Source: Snodgrassella alvi
Lineage (GTDB): Bacteria; Pseudomonadota; Gammaproteobacteria; Burkholderiales; Neisseriaceae
Direction of reading: 5' to 3'
Assembly (NCBI RefSeq): GCF_002777745.1
Contig: NZ_MEIO01000048.1
Span: 62,001 to 126,000, forward strand
Length of the DNA: 64,000 nucleotides
Positions 1,063-3,454 of this stretch are shown here, in pieces. How positions within the stretch are numbered: the first letter of the stretch is position 1; the number at the start of each line of letters is the position of its first letter. The notes under the pieces are model-generated. The model saw nothing but the letters and a program-made list of their open reading frames with translations, made no database searches and was not told the origin of the DNA. A program made the position numbers and the translations under genes.

Positions 1063-1350
1063 TTGCCATCTTACTCAAACCACATACAGGCCAGATTGTA
1101 AAAAACATTTTTAAATCATGAGTATCCAACCCACCTTTTCCAGTCTGGCCTTTGATGGTAATATTTTGTTTAAAATATATCAATATAATCCAAATTTGTA
1201 ACCATAAACTCTTGTAGTATATATACACAGAAAAATTATTAAATCTTTTGAGTAATGGCTGGTTTATTTCTTATATAATTTTTATTTCTATACTTTCGAA
1301 TATCTGATTTTAATCTATTACGCTTATAATGTTTTAAAAGTGGAGAAATT
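1063..1350. other. Intergenic region between ABC permease and retron RT remnant
   Basis: AT-rich, with no convincing gene. It holds a separated inverted repeat, AGGCCAGA at 1088-1095 and TCTGGCCT at 1144-1151, which could be a weak terminator for the permease gene. Nothing else is evident. Confidence 0.4.
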
Positions 1351-1470
1351 TCAATGTGAATTTTTTAACCTCTTCATCATTTTATCAGCACTTTTTGGAT
1401 GATATTTGCTATAATATAATACTCTTCCTTGAACACTTTCAAAATTTTTAACTACAAATTTCATATCCTA
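1351..1470 (-). pseudogene. Severed C-terminal tail of the retron reverse transcriptase
   Basis: After the TAG stop of the reverse transcriptase (1468-1470) the same reading frame stays open for another 39 codons and ends with TGA at 1351-1353. The tail reads DMKFVVKNFESVQGRVLYY and so on, with NFESVQGRVLYYSKYHP resembling the conserved last element of retron RTs (a Leu/x-Gly-x-Ile/Val-x-Tyr-Tyr/Ile block followed by an Asn/His-Pro). With the tail the protein would be about 313 residues, the usual length for retron RTs; without it 274. The simplest reading is a nonsense mutation. Readthrough of the amber codon, or a separate small product starting at the ATG at 1464, are alternatives. Confidence 0.6.
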
Positions 1471-2292
1471 TTCTTGAAAATGTTGCTCTAATTGATACAA
1501 AGCAGCTCTTATATTTGCTCTTTTTTTCTTTGGAATTGATAATTTTGATTTTACTATATTAATCTTGTTTACAGTAAGTGACCTAGTTTTACAACTAGGT
1601 GCTATTGATCTTTTTTCACTCTGTAAACTGAATTGATAAGCTCTTATCATTCCTACTACGATTCTATGTACTTCATTTATATCTTCTTTTGTTTTTTTAG
1701 ATAAGGAGGAAACACTTATATCATCAACAAATCTGGTATAAACAAAATTTTTATTTCTTAATTTTTGTACCACGTTAACTTCTGAACGATAAAAAACCAA
1801 ATTTGCAATATACGAACTACATGGAGAACCTTGCGGAACTTGATTATTGACGGTTGTTAACTTTGCCAGTACATGAGATACCTCTGCAGAAAAATGAAAA
1901 AAGTTCTTAAATATATCAAATACATGTTCATAAGTAATAGCAGTAAAGAATGATTGAATATCAAAATTACAAATAACTTCTGCATTTAAATGTTGAGATA
2001 TATTAGTGTAGGTATCTCTATTAGGAAGAGCTCCATGTAAAAAATCTGGATAAGAGACTACTTTAAATATTTTAGAATTTAATCTTTTAAGAAAATATTT
2101 TAATCGTGGTTCACATAAATAAATTGGTCGGGGTTTACCGTTAGATTTAAGTATTGGTATAGATCCTTCATAAAGAGAGTTTATATTTTCTAACAAATAA
2201 GTTATTTTATTACAATTAATATTAAGATGCTTGACTAAGGATTCGATTGACTGAATGCCAGCTAAGGGGGATTTAAATTGTAAATTAAGCAT
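1468..2292 (-). CDS. Retron-type reverse transcriptase, shortened by an in-frame TAG
   Basis: A 274-residue RNA-directed DNA polymerase of the retron type. Recognisable blocks in order: the fingers motif ILKSNGKPRPIYLCEPRLK (about residues 48-67), HGALP near 87, the motif A aspartate in NFDIQSFF (about 109-116), the motif B block VPQGSPCSSYIANL (about 155-168), and the catalytic YTRFVDDISVS (about 186-196), where FVDD replaces the more usual YADD. The C-terminal part has LSIPKKKRANIRAALYQLE, the thumb element of retron RTs. The start ATG overlaps the end of the HTH gene by 8 bases. It lies in one operon with a 74-aa protein, an HTH protein and a candidate msr-msd RNA. The stop appears premature: the frame continues with a typical C-terminal motif. 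Activity is therefore uncertain. Confidence 0.85.
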   Translation of the reverse strand: MLNLQFKSPLAGIQSIESLVKHLNINCNKITYLLENINSLYEGSIPILKSNGKPRPIYLCEPRLKYFLKRLNSKIFKVVSYPDFLHGALPNRDTYTNISQHLNAEVICNFDIQSFFTAITYEHVFDIFKNFFHFSAEVSHVLAKLTTVNNQVPQGSPCSSYIANLVFYRSEVNVVQKLRNKNFVYTRFVDDISVSSLSKKTKEDINEVHRIVVGMIRAYQFSLQSEKRSIAPSCKTRSLTVNKINIVKSKLSIPKKKRANIRAALYQLEQHFQE

Positions 2293-2566
2293 TATTTTTA
2301 ATCGAATTAATTATTTGTTCATCAAAAAGTTTTGCAATATTTGGCGATAAATTTAATTCACGCTTATCTGATGCTAAATATACTAAAATTTCGATAGGTA
2401 CACCTAGAGAGTTAGAAATTTTTTCAATAGTATCTAGAGTAGGCTTTCTTTTATTATTCTCTATCAATGAAAGATAGGATTGGGATAAATTAGTCCGATT
2501 TTGCAACTCTTCTAATGAGATATCTTTTAATACTCTACAAAATTTTATTGCTTTACCGATATTCAT
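2285..2566 (-). CDS. XRE-family helix-turn-helix protein, retron accessory
   Basis: A 93-residue DNA-binding protein. Residues about 5-60 form an XRE/Cro-C1 HTH: ISLEELQNRTNLSQSYLSLIE followed by N-x-K-R-K-P-T-L-D-T-IEKIS, the classic recognition-helix and wing pattern. The start at 2566 is chosen because it precedes the HTH at the normal distance and has TGGAAAA upstream; an upstream in-frame start would add 26 residues overlapping the previous gene. The gene overlaps the RT start by 8 bases. Retron class VI in the published retron typing is defined by an HTH accessory protein next to the RT, so this fits; the class assignment is from memory. It may be the effector, or a repressor of the locus. 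Confidence 0.8.
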   Translation of the reverse strand: MNIGKAIKFCRVLKDISLEELQNRTNLSQSYLSLIENNKRKPTLDTIEKISNSLGVPIEILVYLASDKRELNLSPNIAKLFDEQIINSIKNNA

Positions 2567-2603
2567 TAATATTTTCCAAAACGAATGTAGGGCCTGCCCA
2601 TAT

Positions 2604-2828
2604 TTAGCTGAAGTATTTTTCAATTGCCTCACTGATGACCTCAATAATATCCATTACTTTCGCTATACCATTTAAATATGGCAGTAATGAAAACTTACTT
2701 TTGTCTTCTTTCAGTTGCAAAAGAAAACCTTCTAGCTCTTTCCGAGCAGGGTCGCTAATCGTATTCGACTTATCTGCAAGAATTTTTTCAATCAAACAAA
2801 TAAGGTCTTTAATTTCATTTTGTTTCAT
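2604..2828 (-). CDS. Small acidic/lysine-rich protein in the retron operon
   Basis: A 74-residue protein that I do not recognise. It is charged and predicted mostly helical, with regularly spaced Leu/Ile (IKDLICLIEKIL; RKELEGFLLQLKEDK; VMDIIEVISEAIEKYF), which would suit helix-helix packing or dimerisation. The start has a good ribosome-binding site, GGAG five bases before the ATG. It is the first protein encoded after the candidate msr-msd RNA, and the gap to the HTH gene is 37 bases, so the three proteins are probably co-transcribed. A role as a second accessory factor (effector or antitoxin-like partner of the HTH protein) is inference from position only. Confidence 0.6.
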   Translation of the reverse strand: MKQNEIKDLICLIEKILADKSNTISDPARKELEGFLLQLKEDKSKFSLLPYLNGIAKVMDIIEVISEAIEKYFS

Positions 2829-2881
2829 AAAATCTCCATAAGTTAATATAAACTGGGCAAAACACCTGCCCTGGCGATTTC

Positions 2882-3107
2882 AAGTATTGTTGCCGGTTTA
2901 GTACGATTAGCAACCACAGAAGCCCACCTACACACGTTACGTCCAGACCCTGGCACTTTTTATATATGCTCAACTACTACCGACCGTCTTCCGCTATCCA
3001 GTTTACTTCGGACGACGAACTACGCCTGTTGCTCGCTGAAGCTGACATATAAAGCAAATATCCACAATGTGGCACCCAAAATGGGTTAATTCTCCACAAC
3101 AATACTT
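2882..3107 (-). ncRNA. Candidate retron msr-msd RNA
   Basis: The segment is bounded by an exact 11-bp inverted repeat: AAGTATTGTTG (read on the minus strand at 3107-3097) and CAACAATACTT (2892-2882). Retron RNAs are flanked by just such a pair (a1/a2). Just inside a1 are two small hairpins, ACCCA/TGGGT (3086-3082 with 3078-3074) and CCAC/GTGG (3072-3069 with 3065-3062), as in an msr. Further on, AGCAAC (3033-3028) can pair with GTTGCT (2914-2909), and GTCC-type inner pairs (3014-3010 with 2944-2940) suggest the long msd stem. It sits 54 bases before the first protein gene of the operon and downstream of a consensus promoter. The branching guanosine and the exact DNA ends cannot be fixed from sequence alone. 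Confidence 0.75.
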
Positions 3108-3171
3108 AAAACTAAGAGATTCAAAATAAAATTAAAGATCGAAATGGACGGTTCATCCATCAATGAAAGTT

Positions 3172-3199
3172 ATTATATACAGCCCCTAGAAACTGTCAA
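3172..3199 (-). promoter_or_regulatory. Perfect-consensus sigma-70 promoter for the retron operon
   Basis: On the minus strand, TTGACA (3199-3194), a 16-base spacer, and TATAAT (3177-3172). Transcription would begin near 3165, about 58 bases before the a1 repeat of the candidate msr-msd RNA. Both hexamers match consensus exactly, so strong, mostly constitutive transcription is expected unless the HTH protein represses it. Confidence 0.75.
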
Positions 3200-3454
3200 T
3201 ATTATTTACTATTAGTAATAATATTGATATCACAAAATTTAAATTTTTAATCTCAAATAGATTTTTATTTAATTTATTAGATAAAATTTCCTCTACAAAA
3301 TTTACCTTAATAGATCATAATCAATATCTTATTTAGAAGCAGAATATTGATGAGAAAGTCTATATAATGTTTAATTTAAAGCTGCATCTATCTGTATAAT
3401 TATTAATACTTTTTCTATGCAGAACGGTTTATTAGCTAGGATAAGGGAGACAAT

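Follow-up and report, generated by a model that had tools for sequence, protein, structure and literature searches.

The window, meaning here the whole 64,000-nt stretch of DNA that was analysed, comes from the bee-gut bacterium Snodgrassella alvi (contig NZ_MEIO01000048.1, positions 62,001-126,000 of the forward strand), and all coordinates below are window positions. On its minus strand lie, in this order, an operator-like palindrome, a promoter, a hairpin with a boxA-like element, a repeat arm (a1), a presumed msr-msd region, a second arm (a2), and genes for a small protein, an HTH protein and a reverse transcriptase (RT). A first-pass annotation had placed the RT, HTH and small-protein genes downstream of the repeat in the same orientation, and all three are indeed on the minus strand. 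Three features are additions to that annotation: the palindrome that covers the -35 box, a hairpin with boxA-like element lying between the promoter and a1, and the shortened RT.

The RT gene (1468..2292, minus strand) encodes 274 aa with an FVDD motif and is C-terminally shortened. Among the RT models in PADLOC, RT_VI matched it best (200.8 bits, E = 6.4e-60), with RT_V close (198.3 bits, 5.3e-59). The Xre-type HTH protein of 93 aa (2285..2566, minus strand) matched PADLOC HTH_VI at 4.8e-24 and Pfam HTH_3 at 1.4e-14. The small protein of 74 aa (2604..2828, minus strand) was matched by none of the PADLOC SP_VI models when searched alone, and these models match up to 14 of the 16 small proteins in our alignment A4, the window's not among them. 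Profile comparison with the other 15 proteins of A4 gave 92.7% (E = 4.2e-7 for one comparison), which points to a relative of the type VI small proteins and a probable effector. Its structural model has three helices (mean pLDDT 73.2, pTM 0.43) and found no match in the PDB at E ≤ 0.001; the small proteins as a group fell into no consistent Pfam family. Incidentally, the same genome contains a second, distant RT-like ORF with a 519-aa open frame (L003, G000:C54:34495-34815).

The class meant here by type VI is reportedly type VI of Mestre et al. 2020. The window resembles such retrons in having an RT and an HTH protein best matched by RT_VI and HTH_VI, but its small protein is too divergent for the SP_VI models and its RT is shortened. 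In the portion of PMC8541194 available, type VI retrons are described as combining an RT with two neighbours, a DNA-binding protein and a small auxiliary protein. Sequence comparison supports placing the locus among them, with one component, the small protein, matched indirectly.

Because a single-protein scan of genome contigs returned one relative, relatives were drawn from genome searches and viral contigs. A search with the HTH_VI family gave matches in 311 of 369 genomes and also in all 14 control genomes, so the strongest of these matches alone were followed. At E ≤ 1e-30, RT alignment A2 matched in 14/399 genomes of the window's own order and 26/390 of another order, and viral contigs gave 18 loci. 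The regions compared were 17 from genome matches, mostly the strongest, and 12 earlier ones. Besides the window, 18 loci, referred to below as type VI loci, have RT, HTH and small ORF together in one and the same gene order (L122, L123, L126, L127, L129, L130, L131, L134, L061, L063, L064, L053-L058 and L068). L062 was dropped as a duplicate of L061, and L070, with HTH matches before its RT, was counted with the other loci. With tblastn, 177 plasmid records and 21 phage records were obtained, and two plasmids (L047 and L048) were looked at.

Window-type loci L061, L063 and L064 are on IMG/VR contigs listed as viral, and prophages may therefore carry such retrons. Four loci with HTH, RT and a short basic small ORF (L049-L052) were considered as window-type loci and set aside for their different leader. 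They form a second kind of HTH and RT locus, which lacks a boxA-like leader and whose small ORF has a hydrophobic stretch at its end. In Snodgrassella genomes G004 and G001 (L059 and L060), another RT precedes a large ORF in which an ATPase-like P-loop is seen by eye, perhaps a different retron type.

The first-pass annotation had held that recurrence of the repeat as a general genomic element would speak against a retron. The stretch with the putative non-coding RNA (ncRNA) is single copy in its own genome and was found in 2 of 14 Snodgrassella genomes. It lies in a presence/absence site (1166-3338) flanked by genes for an ABC transporter and a LysR protein, and the retron is there in the window and in G007. 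In G008 (L156), the flanking genes are ~100 nt apart against ~2.2 kb in the window, and window positions 1166-3338 have no match there; in G001 (L158), the same gap holds a 401-aa ORF, MFS transporter-like by eye. Given the empty site, the MFS-like ORF and the count of 2/14, the retron is an accessory element.

The same count, taken with the length of the RT, could also mean that the window holds a remnant, in which RNA, small protein and HTH protein are kept while the shortened RT makes no msDNA, the locus either decaying or surviving as a small-protein/HTH pair. The RT is 274 aa here and 351 aa in its 90%-identical relative L058, and homology runs on beyond the stop, so the window copy, but not the locus type, falls short of a full-length RT and may be decaying. 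(The closest named relative found was S. communis LMG 28360, with an RT 90% identical.) On the other hand, the catalytic FVDD lies upstream of the stop, the stop is possibly a sequencing error, and leader, arms, small protein and HTH protein are nearly unchanged from L058: leader and arms are the same, small proteins are 98.6% and HTH proteins 97.8% identical, and differences fall in the promoter spacer and msd. We take decay to be a serious possibility, at somewhat less than an even chance.

The promoter TTGACA-N16-TATAAT (3172..3199, minus strand), already seen in the first pass upstream of the repeat, is the sole exact match in the 64 kb with spacers of 15-19 nt allowed, where 0.10 is expected. 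Its reported distance of 58 bases holds to the extended arm described below, and is 63 nt to the 11-bp arm. Overlapping the -35 box is an operator-like palindrome (3196..3227, minus strand) with perfect 11-bp outer arms and the core ACTAATAGT. In 13 of 19 loci, against 0.48 expected, the operator core ACTNNNAGT lies no more than 100 nt upstream of the hairpin; this count includes the near-duplicates window/L058 and L056/L126. By analogy with autoregulated Xre proteins, which are known, the HTH protein may bind this palindrome.

Downstream of the promoter come the leader hairpin AUGGAU-GAACC-GUCCAU (3144..3160, minus strand) and the boxA-like element GATCTTTAATT (3130..3140, minus strand). boxA is the rRNA antitermination signal that keeps ribosomal RNA transcription going, and both rRNA leaders fetched from this Snodgrassella genome bear CGCTCTTTAACAGA, in agreement with the boxA consensus. 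The element in the window, identical in L058, has two mismatches to the consensus GYTCTTTAANA given in the part of PMC5725501 available.

The leader was scanned for up to 1300 nt upstream of each RT, with a hairpin of at least 4 Watson-Crick pairs and a loop of 4-6 nt required within 10 nt before the boxA core. Such a hairpin with boxA core was found in 15 of the 18 type VI loci (1.57 expected) and in 3 of 14 other RT loci (0.64 expected), namely L124, L128 and, as a poor match, L066. The type VI loci without a scan match are L123, which has the hairpin and lacks the core, and L054 and L057, both with an altered core, L054 retaining the hairpin. When the scan was widened to 62 loci, several of them short of upstream sequence (L047 has just 3 nt), 14 matches resulted: 9 among 10 type VI loci and 5 among the 52 others, these being L084 (= L124), L098 (= L128), L048 and the poor matches L117 and L066. 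Nearly all type VI matches have a loop of 5 or 6 nt with G first and CC or UC last, from which L068 deviates. The exact consensus GYTCTTTAANA is present upstream of the RT in 8/18 type VI loci (0.117 expected) and in 2/14 others, L124 and L125 (0.037 expected), and is absent upstream of the RT in the window and in L058.

Covariation was examined in alignment A3, which contains 15 hairpins and leaves out the window, L058, L056, L057, L068 and L124. All 6 of the 6 hairpin pairs had two-sided changes, with a score of 0.897 against 0.388 ± 0.053 for shuffled alignments (0/500 reached it). Because the hairpins were picked sequence by sequence, the 100% pairing in A3 is partly by construction, and the hairpin and boxA scan of the 18 loci is a fairer test. 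Model R1, built from A3 and thus without Snodgrassella, has its best match in the 64-kb window at 3164-3129 (22.8 bits, E = 0.0011), followed by a runner-up of 12.7 bits. Genome-wide, with 150 of 569 first-look candidates scored, the window leader was the sole match at E ≤ 0.1, a weak one at E = 0.043. R1 matched in 12 of 13 genomes, nine of which are sources of the model, and not in G1160. A separate R1 match of 20.1 bits (E = 0.02) in L138, at 723-757, with TTGACTCACAGTCAA and an adjoining boxA, lies ~2.4 kb before a short RT and is perhaps a second retron leader.

Type V retrons resemble the window in the close RT_V score and, in L047, a Salmonella plasmid locus, in a hairpin and exact boxA before the RT. 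The RT of L047 best matches RT_V (1.6e-124) and its annotation is also type V, but it differs in that the RT is followed by an annotated Se72-family effector and the gene table lists no HTH. L048, the RT locus of an Edwardsiella plasmid, takes its type V label solely from an annotated cold-shock-domain neighbour. Both plasmids have the hairpin and an exact GYTCTTTAANA upstream of the RT (in L047 across the record origin, in L048 at 2800-2840), where R1 scores weakly, 11.2 bits and 17.0 bits, respectively.

What the leader does can be read in two ways. Like rRNA-operon and CRISPR-array leaders, it has a boxA core near the start of a long untranslated RNA, as these leaders are described in the parts of PMC5725501 and PMC7862264 available; unlike them, it has a conserved stem-loop hairpin directly before boxA, and then a putative retron RNA. 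We propose from the sequences that retrons of this kind rely on Nus factors of the host for transcription of their long untranslated RNA. Alternatively, hairpin and boxA could belong to the retron RNA as a binding site for the RT or the HTH protein, or be a Nus repression site. The conserved hairpin with its set loop would suit a protein site, the boxA of the window is imperfect, and boxA in the suhB leader represses, according to the same portion of PMC5725501. Nevertheless, the exact rRNA consensus stands in 8/18 loci, and in what is available of PMC7862264 boxA elements are reported ahead of long non-coding RNAs and also of CRISPR arrays, where they raised array transcription. A role other than antitermination thus keeps real weight, and we hold it to be a little less probable than its opposite.

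The putative retron RNA follows. The first-pass annotation had reported an exact 11-bp inverted repeat enclosing 226 nt, and AAGTATTGTTG (3108-3098) and CAACAATACTT (2893-2883) are exact complements that span 3108-2883. With G-U pairs allowed, the ungapped duplex extends to 17 nt and gives the a1 arm (3097..3113) and the a2 arm (2878..2894), both on the minus strand. Of 5000 sequences generated with a first-order Markov model of the 343-nt leader-to-gene stretch, 23 contained an exact 11-bp inverted repeat with 100-300 nt between arms, and such repeats start at 7 positions in the 64-kb window, the a1/a2 pair included. For these two reasons the inverted repeat by itself is suggestive, not decisive.

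Pairing was compared across loci by taking two regions, the first 50 nt downstream of boxA and the stretch from 105 to 25 nt before the end of the leader-to-ATG segment, and scoring the best ungapped duplex that they form. Seventeen loci were used: the window, 14 of the 18 type VI loci, and two loci with leader, small ORF and RT but without an HTH match, L124 and L128. The near-duplicates L058 and L126 were left out, as were L057 and L068, which were not extracted. The sum over own partners was 349.5 against 295.8 ± 11.8 for permuted partners, and the observed sum was reached in 1 of 20,000 permutations. In a thermodynamic version with the same 17 loci it was reached in 0 of 20,000, although several loci rank at or below the average when taken singly. 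Arm length ranges from 6 to 24 nt across loci, and the arms lie at similar places. This comparison of sequences supports a1 and a2 pairing to close the retron RNA, and an ncRNA closed by a1/a2 arms, as expected of a retron, is what the locus presents.

Inside the arms, the presumed msr and msd (2895..3096, minus strand) are taken as one stretch, on the basis of predicted folds. Both short hairpins noted earlier after a1 (ACCCA..TGGGT and CCACATTGTGG) exist in the sequence, but the minimum-energy fold retains the first only. The deeper complementary segments 3033-3028 and 2914-2909 are likewise there as a 6-bp pair, though six bases is little. The 233-nt fold barely beats shuffles (z = -1.93, equalled by 12 of 200). 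In a two-sequence fold of the window and L058, no pair changed on both sides, so that the msd stem gains no covariation support, and one pair of msd changes taken at first as compensatory was rejected on that account. That fold also has a short hairpin, GGGCA..TGCCC, downstream of a2 and ahead of the first gene (2856..2872, minus strand), and relatives have similar hairpins at the same place as judged by eye. An alignment fold of L122, L127, L064 and L053 had two-sided changes in 10 of 60 pairs, leader-hairpin pairs among them, and gave no clear common msd. The Rfam scan of the window gave no match, and model R2 of the 3' region, which came out with no base pairs, did not find the window.

The absence of an Rfam match, the weak fold and the 7 start positions of comparable repeats would fit a chance repeat beside an unrelated RT. 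The permutation test on a1/a2, the single copy of the stretch and the type VI models matched by RT and HTH protein all argue against it, and we consider such a coincidence very improbable. The retron reading of the first pass is upheld by the type VI-like neighbour genes and by own-partner pairing over the 17 loci.

The best explanation as a whole, to which we give a probability of about 0.72, is that the ncRNA (msr-msd) of a type VI retron heads a small minus-strand operon that would work as follows. The HTH protein would repress the operon through the palindrome over the -35 box. Transcription would start at ~3165, judging from the -10 box, and the hairpin and boxA-like element would be transcribed first, an element that in the family may recruit a complex containing NusB and S10. 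RNA polymerase could thereby cross ~340 untranslated nt before the first gene without Rho-dependent termination. Arms a1 and a2 would then pair and close the RNA, as the comparison of loci supports. By the pattern of the retron family, the RT would start at a branch guanosine beside a1 and copy msd into msDNA. The RT of the window copy is ~77 residues shorter than that of its closest relative, and this copy may therefore make little or no msDNA. By analogy with other retrons, the RT-msDNA complex, perhaps with the HTH protein, would restrain the small helical protein until a phage disturbs the complex; control of an effector by an RT-msDNA complex is described for Ec86 and Ec83 in the portion of PMC12948488 available. 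The retron is probably an anti-virus system.

The comparison of 18 loci and the window yields a type VI RNA model (leader, a1/a2 and 3' hairpin), an operator, an operon order and an idea of how the retron RNA is transcribed. In the literature searched, the phrase 'type VI retron' was scarcely met; matches to retron with antitermination were judged off-topic, and retron with boxA returned a poster collection only. The wider proposal is that in one branch of retrons, comprising type VI and at least part of type V, the transcript opens with a dedicated leader, made of a hairpin with conserved stem and loop and an rRNA-type boxA, by which Nus factors of the host would take RNA polymerase across the structured untranslated retron RNA. 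We would give this generalization an even chance. If boxA works there, it would link retrons to the transcription of rRNA and CRISPR arrays and bear on expressing such retrons in other hosts. Lambda-like phages use Nus factors, and retron expression would then depend on host factors that these phages take over. By capturing Nus factors, a phage could alter how much retron RNA is made relative to the effector and RT encoded downstream.
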